Source: Oenococcus sicerae
GTDB taxonomy: Bacteria; Bacillota; Bacilli; Lactobacillales; Lactobacillaceae
Length of the DNA: 64,000 bases
Assembly: GCF_004102045.2 (NCBI RefSeq)
Contig: NZ_CP029684.2
Location: 1,426,001 to 1,490,000 of the forward strand
Direction: 5' to 3'
Positions 49,971-59,539 of the stretch are shown here, piece after piece. A program made the position numbers and the translations under genes. The notes beneath the pieces are model-generated. The model saw only the letters and a list, made by a program, of their open reading frames with translations, was not told where the DNA came from and did no database searches. Numbering within the stretch: the stretch's first letter is position 1; each line of letters opens with the position of its first letter.

Positions 49971-50663
49971 ATGGCAAAAGAGACTGATGTTCGTGCGACC
50001 AGTGACAATCAAATACATTTATTGAAGAACTTAATTGATAGCAAAGTTACTTATTTGCTTACAATGAATAAAGCCATTGCTGATCATGATGATGCGCTCA
50101 TTTACGAGCTGCTTGATTCTGCGCGTTATAACGAGCAGGTCCGTCAGTGGCCGCACGCTGATCCGAACAATTTTCTTAGCAGCATGACTGAAACATTTCA
50201 GCCCGATCTAGCGGCGTTTTTATCAGCAAAATTAATAGATTTCATTCGTGAAAACTTTCCTTTTCTGATTTTTAAAGAGATTAAAACTGGCGTTTTCGAA
50301 ATTGTCTTTGGCACTTGGCCTTCAGCTCGAACTTTTGGATTGCTGGATATTATTCGCGTTGCTTTCATTTTTAACGATTCAGAAATGAATCAGTTAAAAG
50401 CCTTTATGGATGATCCGCAAACGTCAAAAGAACAAGATCTACAAATTACCGAATTACATCAAGCGAACAAAATTTACGCAGAAAAAGGCCTTGCATCAGT
50501 CAAAAAAGATATTGACAATAATAAACTGGAAATTATTCAATTAGAAAAAAATCGTGCAATTCTTCAACTAGAATGTGAACAGATCGAAAAATACTTTGGC
50601 AGTTTTCAACATTTCGTTGATCAGGCTGATCATCTTTACACTGATTACTTAACGAGCTTTTAA
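49971..50663 (+). CDS. Hypothetical protein with C-terminal coiled coil
   Basis: 230 aa, not recognised. It is soluble, without signal peptide or membrane span. The first 145 residues look globular (LIDFIRENFPFLIFKEIKTG); about 155-215 are heptad-like and charged (SVKKDIDNNKLEIIQLEKNR), suggesting a coiled coil. AGGA lies only 1 nt before the ATG, so initiation is unusual or the start is wrong. It is followed 11 bp later by another unknown gene of similar theme; the two probably form a pair. Confidence 0.6.
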   Translation: MAKETDVRATSDNQIHLLKNLIDSKVTYLLTMNKAIADHDDALIYELLDSARYNEQVRQWPHADPNNFLSSMTETFQPDLAAFLSAKLIDFIRENFPFLIFKEIKTGVFEIVFGTWPSARTFGLLDIIRVAFIFNDSEMNQLKAFMDDPQTSKEQDLQITELHQANKIYAEKGLASVKKDIDNNKLEIIQLEKNRAILQLECEQIEKYFGSFQHFVDQADHLYTDYLTSF

Positions 50664-50673
50664 GAGGGATACA

Positions 50674-51597
50674 ATGACCAAAGATTCAGCACAATCTCAA
50701 CTATTCTTAAATGATTTTCAAAGAAAACTCGCACACGATAGCCAACAACTAGATGTTTTTAGTCGATCTTTGTCTGATTTTTTAAATGCACAGACAACCG
50801 TTGAAACAGTAGATGCTATGTCTGTTTTGTTGAAAAATCAATTAGAGAGTTACGAACGAACAACACCGCTTTTTCATTTTAGCGAAAGTTTTTGGTTATC
50901 TCAAATGTTGGTAAAGCTCTTTAATCTAAAAGGATCTACTTTTTTTTCGACTTTAAATTCAGAAAATGAATTACTTGGCAGTTTAAGAGCAGATGCATTG
51001 CCGAATTTCGAATTTTATTTTGTTAAAGCCCAGATTCCAGCTGGTGGCTTTTATTTGCGTGAAACGAGTTTGCAAAATAATTTGTTTTATCTCGACATTT
51101 TTAATCGACGTTTTTTTATTGATGCATCTGATTTTGTTCAGTTAATTGCATCGCAGGTAGGCAGGAGACTAACGGATCAGCAGATTGCTAATTTATCATC
51201 AGCATTTAATCAATTGGCCGAGATACTTTCGGAAGACCAATTTGCTTTGGACTTAAATTTGATTCAGCCAGAGAATGATGCTGTTTTAGAAATCGATAAA
51301 GTTGATTTACCCGCAATTGTTACCGACAAACTTTTTATTTTAGCTCAAGCTCATCATACGGATATCGTTGCTTTAGATAATGGATTTGAAATTAGCTTTA
51401 ATGAAGACTTGAAATTATATTTAACACAGCGTTTAGATCCCATCGGACACTCTCAGTGGTCTTTTAAAGTAGTGGATTTATATGATCAATGGTCTCTGAT
51501 GGCGGTTTTAGCAAAATATGACTGGTTTTTAAATTGGTACTTAGATGATTTGGCGAAGTTACAAATTGCTTACCGCCGTGAGTTTTTTGCTGGATGA
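50674..51597 (+). CDS. Hypothetical protein
   Basis: 307 aa soluble protein that I do not recognise. It starts at ATG 50674 with GAGGG upstream. The sequence is rich in Phe and Leu with alternating polar residues, and no catalytic motif stands out. It is cotranscribed with the preceding coiled-coil protein and ends 40 bp before tRNA-Arg. Possibly specific to Oenococcus or its close relatives. Confidence 0.65.
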   Translation: MTKDSAQSQLFLNDFQRKLAHDSQQLDVFSRSLSDFLNAQTTVETVDAMSVLLKNQLESYERTTPLFHFSESFWLSQMLVKLFNLKGSTFFSTLNSENELLGSLRADALPNFEFYFVKAQIPAGGFYLRETSLQNNLFYLDIFNRRFFIDASDFVQLIASQVGRRLTDQQIANLSSAFNQLAEILSEDQFALDLNLIQPENDAVLEIDKVDLPAIVTDKLFILAQAHHTDIVALDNGFEISFNEDLKLYLTQRLDPIGHSQWSFKVVDLYDQWSLMAVLAKYDWFLNWYLDDLAKLQIAYRREFFAG

Positions 51598-51636
51598 TGA
51601 TAATTTTTACCCTTTTTTAGTTATACTAAGAGGTAC

Positions 51637-51710
51637 GCGGAAGTGGCTCAACTGGATAGAGCATCGGAGTTCTAATCCGCAGGTTGTGGGTTCAAGTCCC
51701 ACCTTCCGCA
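51637..51710 (+). tRNA. tRNA-Arg (anticodon UCU)
   Basis: 74 nt cloverleaf: acceptor GCGGAAG/CTTCCGC, D stem GCTC/GAGC, anticodon loop GTTCTAA giving UCU for AGA codons, T arm GTGGG-TTCAAGT-CCCAC, discriminator A. CCA is not encoded. The outermost anticodon-stem pair (T-C) is mismatched. TATACT at 51622-51627 is a likely -10 box. A protein start codon follows 8 nt after the 3' end. Confidence 0.95.
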
Positions 51711-51718
51711 TTGAAATT

Positions 51719-52234
51719 ATGAAGAAAAGTTTTTGGATTTTAGCATCGGTCGTTATCGTTCTGCTTGGGGCAGCTTATTTCTTGTATCCTCGAGCATCTT
51801 TTGGTGGCGTTCAGATGTCGGAAAAACAATTTAAGCAAGTCAATCGTTCGAAAGATAATATTGATGTTTTGCTGCAAGATTTAAATAAATATAAACCAAC
51901 GAGTCCTAAGACGGTGACAAAAATTAAGCAGGACGTGGATCAATTGATTGCTCAAAACGGCGAGAATCTTTCGACGGCTGATTTTGATAAATTGGAGACA
52001 GCGGCCGGTGACAAGAACGGTGGTGTCCTGGCAACGATTGAGGCTGCTCAAAAAGGTCATTATTTAATTGATGGCGATATTGCTTCAGTCCTGCACACGA
52101 AGTTCTCAATTATTGTTTTACAGTCTGCTAAATCAGCGACTGAGTCAGATTCTCAGGCCAAAAAGGTTGCTAGCCAGATTGAAAAAGATTTAAGCATTGA
52201 TTCTCGTTTGTACAAAATAGGAATTAAGAGCTGA
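51719..52234 (+). CDS. Small membrane-anchored or secreted hypothetical protein, starting 8 nt behind tRNA-Arg
   Basis: 171 aa. The N-terminus MKKSFWILASVVIVLLGAAY is a signal anchor or uncleaved signal peptide, which fixes the start at ATG 51719. The external part (about 30-171) is Lys/Asp-rich and helical with no known domain. No ribosome binding site exists because the preceding bases are the tRNA. It must be read from the tRNA transcript; cutting at the tRNA 3' end would leave an 8-nt leader. Confidence 0.7.
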   Translation: MKKSFWILASVVIVLLGAAYFLYPRASFGGVQMSEKQFKQVNRSKDNIDVLLQDLNKYKPTSPKTVTKIKQDVDQLIAQNGENLSTADFDKLETAAGDKNGGVLATIEAAQKGHYLIDGDIASVLHTKFSIIVLQSAKSATESDSQAKKVASQIEKDLSIDSRLYKIGIKS

Positions 52235-52237
52235 CCG

Positions 52238-52267
52238 TTGACCCATTGAGGTCTTTTTTGTTACAAT
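52238..52267 (+). promoter_or_regulatory. Promoter of rplU-rpmA
   Basis: TTGACC (52238-52243) and TACAAT (52262-52267) with an 18-bp spacer, immediately after the preceding stop codon. Confidence 0.7.
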
Positions 52268-52354: not shown

Positions 52355-52657
52355 ATGGCTAATAAGTACGCAGTTATTGAAACTGGTGGAAAGCAGTATC
52401 GCGTCGAAGCAGGAGATGCTATCTTCGTTGAAAAACTCGAAGCAAATGAAGGTGATAAAGTAACTTTTGATAAAGTGTTGCTTGCTTCTGGGAAGTTTGG
52501 TGATCCATATGTTTCTGGTGCAGCTGTTACTGGAACAGTCGCTAAACAAGGCAAAGAAAAGAAAGTCGTTACCTTTAAATATAAGGCAAAAAAGCATGGC
52601 CATGTTAAAAAAGGTCACCGCCAGCCATACACTAAAGTAATGATTGAGAATGTTTAA
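52355..52657 (+). CDS. rplU: 50S ribosomal protein L21
   Basis: 100 aa. Starts [21 protein letters not shown] and contains the conserved [25 protein letters not shown]-type C-terminus (shown in part: [13 protein letters not shown]). It binds 23S rRNA in the large subunit. In most Firmicutes a gene for the protease Prp (YsxB) lies between rplU and rpmA; here only 11 bp separate them. Confidence 0.97.
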
Positions 52658-52668
52658 GGAGGCACACA

Positions 52669-52989
52669 ATGTTAGAAAAATTACAGAACCTAATTAAGTT
52701 AGCCCACCATAAGGGCGGCGGATCTTCATCCAACGGTCGTGACTCTGCTGGACGTCGTCTGGGAGCAAAACGTGCCGATGGCCAAGACGTTCTTGCCGGT
52801 ACGATTATTTATCGCCAACGTGGTACACATATTTATCCAGGTATTAACGTTGGTCGTGGTGATGACGATACACTTTATGCATTAGCTGATGGTGTCGTTC
52901 GCTATGAACGTAAAGGAAAAGCACAGCGTCAAGCTTCTATTTATTCTCGTGAAGAATATGATACAAAGCTCGAACCCGCAGTTAAGTAA
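52669..52989 (+). CDS. rpmA: 50S ribosomal protein L27 with an atypical N-terminal extension
   Basis: 106 aa. From Ala12 ([15 protein letters not shown]) it is a standard L27, whose N-terminus reaches the peptidyl transferase centre. The first 11 residues, [11 protein letters not shown], form an extension as in Firmicutes, but lack the LQFF motif that Prp cuts. AGGAGG at 52657-52662 confirms ATG 52669 as the start. No prp gene is next to it. How the mature end is made is unclear. A terminator follows. Confidence 0.95.
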
Positions 52990-57634: not shown

Positions 57635-58616
57635 TTTTAGAAAACAATTTCAACATGAGCAATTGCCATCCGTTATTTCTTTTACTGGTGATGAAGATTT
57701 TGTAGCGGAACAAACGATCACAGCACTCGAAAATTCGGTAGATAAAAATTTTCGTTCCTGGGATTTTGTTCGAGCTAATTATGACAATCAAAACATTCGT
57801 GAAATTTTGGCAGATGCCGCAACTTTGTCCTTTAATGCAAATCGTCGTTTTGTGATCATTGATAATCCACTTTTTTTGACGACAAAAGGCAGCTTGGAAA
57901 AATCAGAGGAAACATTATTACTCAACTATTTATCTCATCCAGAGCCGGAAAATACGTTAATTTTCAATGCTGTCGGACTGACCTTAGACCGCAGAAAAAA
58001 AATTGTCAAAAATTTAGCCAATCATGCTGAAAATATTGATTTTCAGCCGCTTTCGCAAAGAGAAATCGTTCAAGTCACCAAAAAACGTTTTAATGAGGCA
58101 CATATTTCAATTGCAGATAACGAGCTTAGCTATTACGTACAACGCCTTGGTTTAAATTTACGTCTGATCATAAACAACCTTAGCAAACTAATTATGTATG
58201 GCCAAAATCATCTGATTACCAAGGAAAGCATTGATGCACTAGTTACGCCCGAATTGACAGAATCAGCCTTCGATTTGGTTGAGGCATTGAATAAAAAACA
58301 AACCGAAAAAGCACTTGAAATATACAAAAATTTGCTAGATCAAGGTCAAGCAGCAATCAGGATCAACGCGCTGCTTTTATCTCAATATCGATTACTACTG
58401 CAAGCCAAAAGTCTTTCTTTAAGTGATGATAATTTAGCTAGAAAACTTCATATTCATCCATATCGAGCAAAGCTAGCTAATCAATTCGCCAGTCTTGAAC
58501 ATTTTTCCGAAATCAGTAATAGCTATCTTAATTTGGCCGATATTGATTTGAAACTTAAATCAACAAATCTAGATCCAAATTTATTATTTGAAATTTTTGT
58601 TTCAAGAAAAATTTAG
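57621..58616 (+). CDS. holA: DNA polymerase III delta subunit
   Basis: 331 aa clamp-loader subunit. Contains the N-terminal FTGDEDFVAEQTITAL and the downstream LLSQYRLLLQAK-type collar domain. ATG 57621 follows AAAGGA (57609-57614) and overlaps the end of comEC. In Firmicutes holA commonly follows comEC. Its last 15 bp overlap the end of the convergent CPBP gene, with no terminator between them. Confidence 0.93.
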   Translation: MTPNDFRKQFQHEQLPSVISFTGDEDFVAEQTITALENSVDKNFRSWDFVRANYDNQNIREILADAATLSFNANRRFVIIDNPLFLTTKGSLEKSEETLLLNYLSHPEPENTLIFNAVGLTLDRRKKIVKNLANHAENIDFQPLSQREIVQVTKKRFNEAHISIADNELSYYVQRLGLNLRLIINNLSKLIMYGQNHLITKESIDALVTPELTESAFDLVEALNKKQTEKALEIYKNLLDQGQAAIRINALLLSQYRLLLQAKSLSLSDDNLARKLHIHPYRAKLANQFASLEHFSEISNSYLNLADIDLKLKSTNLDPNLLFEIFVSRKI

Positions 58617-59447
58617 CTGATGTTTTTTCACCATTCGGAGAATCCAAGCTGCATAGATACAAGCAACTATAAGAATCAATGCATTTATTGAGAAATCAAG
58701 CAGATTTACTTTGGAATTTCCGAGACCGAAAATAGCATTCGGGTCCGCTAAAAATGCGATCATATCAATCGCGCTATGAAATAAAATTGTTGCAGTTAAA
58801 TTTTTTGTTGTTAAATAAATCAAACCAAACAACACGCCTAAAGACATTGTGTAGATCATTTGAATGCCTGTTACAGGTAAACTAGCTGCTGATAAAAGAT
58901 TTAATAGATGCAATCCTGAGAAGAAAATAGCTGAGATTATAATAATGCTATAGTTGGAGAATTTACTTTGATCATCTACGGTATCCAAATTGCCAATCAT
59001 GATTCCGCGCGCCGAATATTCTTCAAAAATACCAATTAATAATGATAGAACGATTGCGGTAAAGTAATTTAAAAAAGATAAATGAATTGCTTTGGCAAAT
59101 AGAACTAGAAAATTGATTACGATAAAAATTAAAGTGGGGAAACCGATAATTAGTGCTTTTAGAAAATTTTTATCAATAAATTTAATTTTAATTTTAAAAA
59201 CAAAATGATTAAATAACCAAATAAAAAAAATAGCTGCTGCTTCGCTAATGATAGCAAGCCAACTCAAGTAAACTTGATTGTTCGTTAATGAATTATAACT
59301 AACCCTGCCTGCGCCAAAAACTGCCTTGAATATAGAAAAAATAACTGACAAAATAGCTGTACCGGCAATTGATCCACATAATAAAGAAAAAATCGTTGCA
59401 AAAAAAATTTGCAACGACCGAAATAGTGTTTGTCTTTGACTTTTCAT
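58602..59447 (-). CDS. CPBP-family intramembrane protease, starting 4 nt behind tRNA-Ser
   Basis: 281 aa with seven or eight membrane spans. CAAX/bacteriocin-processing protease motifs are visible: IFEEYSARGIMIG (usual EExxxR), FSGLHLLNL, and a final FHSAIDMIAF. In motif 1 the usual EE pair is EE followed by YSAR. Members process prenyl or bacteriocin-type substrates or give immunity. ATG 59447 lies 4 nt after the tRNA-Ser acceptor end with no ribosome binding site, so its mRNA likely arises from tRNA processing. No substrate gene is nearby. Confidence 0.82.
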   Translation of the reverse strand: MKSQRQTLFRSLQIFFATIFSLLCGSIAGTAILSVIFSIFKAVFGAGRVSYNSLTNNQVYLSWLAIISEAAAIFFIWLFNHFVFKIKIKFIDKNFLKALIIGFPTLIFIVINFLVLFAKAIHLSFLNYFTAIVLSLLIGIFEEYSARGIMIGNLDTVDDQSKFSNYSIIIISAIFFSGLHLLNLLSAASLPVTGIQMIYTMSLGVLFGLIYLTTKNLTATILFHSAIDMIAFLADPNAIFGLGNSKVNLLDFSINALILIVACIYAAWILRMVKKHQLNFS

Positions 59448-59451
59448 CGAA

Positions 59452-59539
59452 GGAGACACGGGGATTCGAACCCCGGCGCCGACTCTACATCGGTTCGGCG
59501 GATTTCGAGTCCGCTGCATTACCACTCTGCCATGTCTCC
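59452..59539 (-). tRNA. tRNA-Ser (anticodon CGA)
   Basis: 88 nt with acceptor GGAGACA/TGTCTCC, anticodon stem GCGGA/TCCGC around loop CTCGAAA (CGA, reads UCG), a long variable arm CCGA/TCGG and T arm CGGGG-TTCGAAT-CCCCG. The base after the acceptor stem (discriminator) is T, where bacterial tRNA-Ser almost always has G. CCA is not encoded. An extended -10 TGCTAGAAT lies at 59562-59554 on this strand. Confidence 0.95.

Follow-up and report, generated by a model that had tools for sequence, protein, structure and literature searches.

Closest described systems

In low-GC Gram-positive bacteria, leaderless translation is regarded as marginal, and tRNA punctuation is usually presented as a feature of mitochondria. 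In the Escherichia coli thrU-tyrU-glyT-thrT-tufB operon, tRNA and protein genes share a promoter and are separated by tRNA processing, and the mRNA keeps a leader with a Shine-Dalgarno (SD) sequence. A promoter common to a tRNA and a protein gene, with separation of the two by tRNA processing, is likewise proposed here for Oenococcus, but in contrast to tufB the SD sequence is lost and the leader would measure only 7–13 or 2–3 nt.

The leaderless mRNAs of animal mitochondria are freed by RNase P together with RNase Z/ELAC2 (PMC11157125, PMC4493943). The Oenococcus arrangement resembles this punctuation in that a tRNA abuts a coding sequence, excision of the tRNA is predicted to create the mRNA 5' end, the leader would be absent or very short, and an SD sequence is missing. 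It differs in that Oenococcus is a bacterium with standard ribosomes and with SD sequences at most genes, that two clear junctions and not a whole genome are concerned, and that the cut is a predicted one.

Leaderless mRNAs are also made post-transcriptionally by the cutting activity of MazF in E. coli, according to the account cited in PMC3848588. The likeness lies in an endonuclease cut, and not a promoter, removing the leader, as is proposed for Oenococcus; MazF is, however, a stress toxin leaving 5'-hydroxyl ends, whereas RNase Z is a housekeeping tRNA enzyme from which a 5' phosphate is expected. Ordinary leaderless mRNAs of enterococci have a leader of under 10 nt, like the one predicted here for the window genome, but with a transcription start mapped at or near the start codon (PMC7724050); the Oenococcus end would be a processed one. 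A search of a collection of open-access papers yielded no bacterial precedent for this arrangement. On the best reading, this would not be a new mechanism class but a bacterial form of the logic of tRNA punctuation.

The tRNA-Arg(UCU) junction

A stretch of 64 kb of Oenococcus DNA, referred to as the window, was analysed. The preliminary description of this DNA had placed an ATG 8 nt behind tRNA-Arg(UCU) and had found no ribosome binding site ahead of it, and both statements were borne out. The elements of the junction are the following.

51622..51627, + strand: TATACT, likely the -10 box of the tRNA-Arg promoter; a good -35 box is absent
51637..51710, + strand: tRNA-Arg(UCU), delimited by ARAGORN and Rfam (67.1 bits); CCA not encoded
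51711..51718, + strand: 8-nt spacer TTGAAATT; no SD sequence; U at +1 after the discriminator base
51719..52234, + strand: open reading frame, with its ATG at 51719, for a signal-anchor protein of 171 aa that belongs to an unnamed family of Lactobacillaceae
52240..52260, + strand: short hairpin (GACC-N6-GGTC) with a T run behind it, resembling an intrinsic terminator, 3' of the 171-aa reading frame (read from sequence)

The UCU anticodon is represented by a single copy among the tRNAs found in the genome. A terminator scan returned nothing between tRNA-Arg and the reading frame, and the spacing (7–13 nt here, 2–3 nt at the tRNA-Ser junction described below) is too tight to hold a promoter or terminator of its own. 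The hairpin behind the 171-aa gene scored under the threshold of the terminator scan; its stem reads GCCC/GGGC in genome G004. It is overlapped by a promoter-like site ahead of rplU (TTGACC-18-TACAAT, 52238-52267). In Firmicutes, the gene of the Prp protease usually sits between rplU (L21) and rpmA (L27). In the window (52355-52989) this gene is absent between the two, which are only 11 nt apart, and the L27 N-terminus lacks the usual cleavage motif.

SD pairing was computed against the 3' tail of the genome's own 16S rRNA, GGATCACCTCCTTTCT, on the 17 nt ending 3 nt ahead of the ATG. The region upstream of 51719 gave -0.1 kcal/mol, weaker than the median of -1.7 at random window positions. A candidate start at -4.5 or better was present in 79% of 53 large reading frames in the 64-kb window, a generous figure, as it takes the best start per frame. 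A GAAA within the spacer was rejected as an SD sequence; it lies too near the ATG and is missing in O. kitaharae.

The 171-aa protein was present in six of seven Oenococcus genomes. A comparison of the junction in other Oenococcus genomes, as proposed in the preliminary description, found it in five species with these spacers:

Window genome (G000): TTGAAATT, 8 nt
G001: TGAAATT, 7 nt
O. kitaharae (G002): TTAAATT, 7 nt
O. oeni DSM 20252 (G003) and G004: TTTAAAATTAATT, 13 nt

AATT-ATG and the U at +1 are invariant in all five, and TATACT is identical in them, 8–9 nt upstream of tRNA-Arg. A sixth Oenococcus genome (G005), with 42% identity and the same gene order, has a 25-nt spacer with an SD-like GAGAGTGAG (-9.6). 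Because the junction is found in five species, it is judged from these comparisons not to be an annotation accident.

A profile search of 397 Lactobacillaceae genomes identified homologs in 51, spanning 10 of 40 genera, and the start was resolvable in 48. tRNA-Arg(UCU) adjoins most of these 48 homologs, usually in divergent orientation and about 100–200 nt off (28 genomes). In nine genomes, namely six Oenococcus, G034, G131 and G154, the tRNA is co-directional and no more than 300 nt away. The spacer in G034 measures 21 nt and contains the SD sequence AAGAAGG. The five tight Oenococcus junctions scored +1.9 to -0.1 kcal/mol, i.e., no SD sequence, whereas every one of the 43 other homologs, that of G005 included, scored -5.1 to -12.0 kcal/mol and has one. 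Since the tRNA adjoins most homologs and the SD sequence is lost only at abutting junctions, the tRNA neighbourhood is judged to be old. In these data the loss is specific, going with a reading frame that abuts the tRNA. The pairing of this family with tRNA-Arg(UCU) is strikingly stable across Lactobacillaceae despite the change of orientation in Oenococcus.

No significant match to the 171-aa family was found in Pfam, NCBIfam or PDB. A structure predicted by AlphaFold from three sequences came out helical but unreliable (pLDDT 47), and family members are lipoproteins in several relatives. The protein is small, exported or membrane-anchored, and probably helical. Searches for mobile elements led to no candidate: a plasmid link was rejected, as only short matches over the tRNA were returned, and so was a phage attachment site, with only partial matches to other tRNAs among phages. 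In the portion of PMC8074189 consulted, the prophage sites named for O. oeni involve tRNA-Glu, -Leu, -Lys, -Cys and -Ser but not tRNA-Arg.

The tRNA-Ser(CGA) junction

A survey of the genome's tRNAs identified one further abutting junction, which lies inside the same window.

59451..59539, - strand: tRNA-Ser(CGA), the second tRNA with an abutting-type junction
59448..59450, - strand: 3-nt spacer TCG (TC in O. oeni G003 and in G004)
58602..59447, - strand: 281-aa Rce1-like membrane protein (PF02517, E 2.8e-16), its ATG abutting tRNA-Ser; SD sequence absent

The abutting arrangement, with 2–3 nt, occurs in three species (the window genome, O. oeni G003 and G004). In G003 and G004 a stop codon lies inside tRNA-Ser, and there is no start codon between it and the ATG of the Rce1-like gene. 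In O. kitaharae and G001 the spacing is about 82 nt, and a GTG start of the same gene follows a good SD sequence (-8.2 in O. kitaharae). The discriminator of tRNA-Ser(CGA), at 59451 in the window, is apparently U in five Oenococcus species; it is A at the other tRNA-Ser genes.

Other co-directional pairs of a tRNA and a gene mostly have longer spacers with SD sequences (e.g., tRNA-Met, 32 nt, -10.0). Among the 47 tRNAs of the outgroup genome G059, not one was followed within 15 nt by the start of a reading frame of at least 70 codons; the nearest frames begin after 16 nt (a TTG overlapping a terminator-like hairpin) and then after at least 66 nt. A separate observation concerns tRNA-Gly(CCC), which is followed after 26–33 nt by a YitT-family gene in three species, the window genome (C1, about 1235200), O. 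oeni and O. kitaharae. The ATG of this gene lies exactly 6 nt behind a TATACT box in all three, a leaderless-promoter geometry, and is preceded by a weak AGGA/GGA at most.

Proposed processing and competing explanations

RNase Z is encoded in the genome (343.9 bits), no CCA follows the discriminator in any of the tRNAs surveyed, and the base behind the tRNA-Arg discriminator is U in five of five species, so that both an enzyme and a suitable substrate for a tRNA 3' cut were found. In Bacillus subtilis, RNase Z acts on precursors that lack CCA, and a U at most 2 nt from the discriminator raises its activity about 200-fold (PMC10100781); a streptococcal RNase Z cuts directly behind the discriminator (PMC8549757). 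Given the enzyme, the CCA-less tRNAs and the U behind the tRNA, a cut leaving a leader of 7–13 nt would be the expected processing.

The best explanation, held to be probable though well short of certain, is tRNA punctuation: a near-leaderless mRNA for the 171-aa gene would arise from processing of the tRNA 3' end. One RNA would start at the tRNA-Arg promoter, span the tRNA and the 171-aa gene, and end at the short terminator ahead of rplU. RNase P and RNase Z would excise the tRNA; by cutting at 51710/51711, RNase Z would at the same time set the 5' end of the mRNA, whose leader would be 8 nt long and lack an SD sequence. Ribosomes would then start on the first AUG without the aid of an SD sequence, as on leaderless mRNAs. 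The tRNA-Ser(CGA)/Rce1-like pair would follow the same scheme with a 2–3-nt leader. Co-transcription, cutting by RNase Z and translation of the cut RNA are each proposed on the strength of the sequence. A tRNA-mRNA transcript from the tRNA promoter had already been suggested in the preliminary description; comparative evidence now favours this suggestion, as the -10-like TATACT before tRNA-Arg is conserved, a terminator is absent between the tRNA and the reading frame, and the SD sequence is lost only where the two abut.

The leader predicted from a cut at the tRNA end is 7–8 nt in three species and 13 nt in G003 and G004, which is over the 10-nt convention. In Firmicutes, a 5' monophosphate exposes RNA to RNase J, and the cut RNA would carry such an end, a point against the best explanation. 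Enterococci do have mRNAs whose leaders measure under 10 nt, but these make up below 1% (PMC7724050), and a short-leader start may for this reason be weak in this bacterial group.

Any such scheme depends on the start codon, which the preliminary description had regarded as fixed by the hydrophobic N-terminus. Codons 2–32 are under purifying selection between the main lineages (dN 0.04–0.11 vs dS 0.43–1.23), and in all 16 aligned relatives a hydrophobic N-terminus lies at the same place, with a lipobox cysteine in several. In O. kitaharae, a TAA stands in frame two codons ahead of the ATG, so that a start farther upstream is impossible there. An N-terminal extension through the tRNA (a 229-aa frame) was rejected, as the frame length varies by species and the stop interrupts it in O. 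kitaharae. On account of the selection on the N-terminus and the upstream stop, the translation start at 51719 is judged to be real, the evidence being indirect. Among amino-acid-invariant codons, synonymous variation was found in one of six within codons 2–8 vs 91 of 109 in the rest (p = 0.001); reduced synonymous change near start codons is common and is no proof of leaderless initiation. The spacer and codons 5–9 can form a hairpin, and the coding sequence is conserved anyway. The earlier claim is qualified by an internal ATG at codon 33 behind a moderate SD sequence, GGTGG (-4.9 both in the window and in O. oeni, -6.1 in O. kitaharae), from which a soluble protein of 139 aa would be made. 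As the sole true start, this is the least probable of the alternatives, for it would leave the selection on the first 32 codons, and the N-termini shared by the relatives, unexplained; it may be a minor start alongside 51719.

With 51719 as the start, the origin and the state of the translated RNA have to be weighed. The uncut tRNA-mRNA might itself be the translated form, with the RNase Z cut ending its life through the 5' monophosphate, and a failure of RNase Z would then be expected to raise the amount of protein. A leader of this length cannot shield the cut end, and decay by RNase J from 5' monophosphates is established in Firmicutes; moreover, oxidative stress leads to the loss of a streptococcal RNase Z, which shows that uncut precursors can accumulate in nature (PMC8549757). 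A folded acceptor stem ending 8 nt before the AUG, and at the tRNA-Ser junction 2–3 nt before it, should however block 30S loading where an SD sequence is missing, and this reading, although foremost among the alternatives, is unlikely. Next in rank, and improbable, is a promoter inside the tRNA that starts an mRNA just ahead of the ATG, independent of the tRNA. The TAAAAT 5 nt before the ATG in O. oeni would suit it, as would the -10-like box in a comparable place at the tRNA-Gly(CCC)/YitT pair, but the promoter scan gave no sigma-70-type site here and the five spacers have no -10-like box in common. Ranked behind this again is a unit fed mainly by read-through from the upstream genes (49971-51597), with the tRNA as a passenger. 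The upstream reading frame does end at 51597, 39 nt before tRNA-Arg, with no terminator in the gap; set against this, TATACT is conserved at promoter distance, an essential tRNA needs a dependable promoter, and processing at 51710/51711 would be identical either way.

Under tRNA punctuation, output of the 171-aa gene would likely be low, coupled to growth and bound to a tRNA that is essential and present in a single copy; the link with tRNA-Arg may simply keep expression constant at a low level. A wider proposal, advanced tentatively and with slightly less than an even chance, holds that Oenococcus uses mitochondria-like tRNA punctuation at at least two loci, where RNase Z would make near-leaderless mRNAs of membrane proteins, SD sequences would have been lost since ribosomes accept the processed end, and tRNA processing would directly set the output. 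A conserved bacterial junction, together with relatives that keep an SD version of the gene, provides a natural before-and-after series. It can be tested directly in this system whether a housekeeping tRNA cut can yield a leaderless mRNA that ribosomes translate, and whether it can make a protein depend on the maturation of a tRNA.
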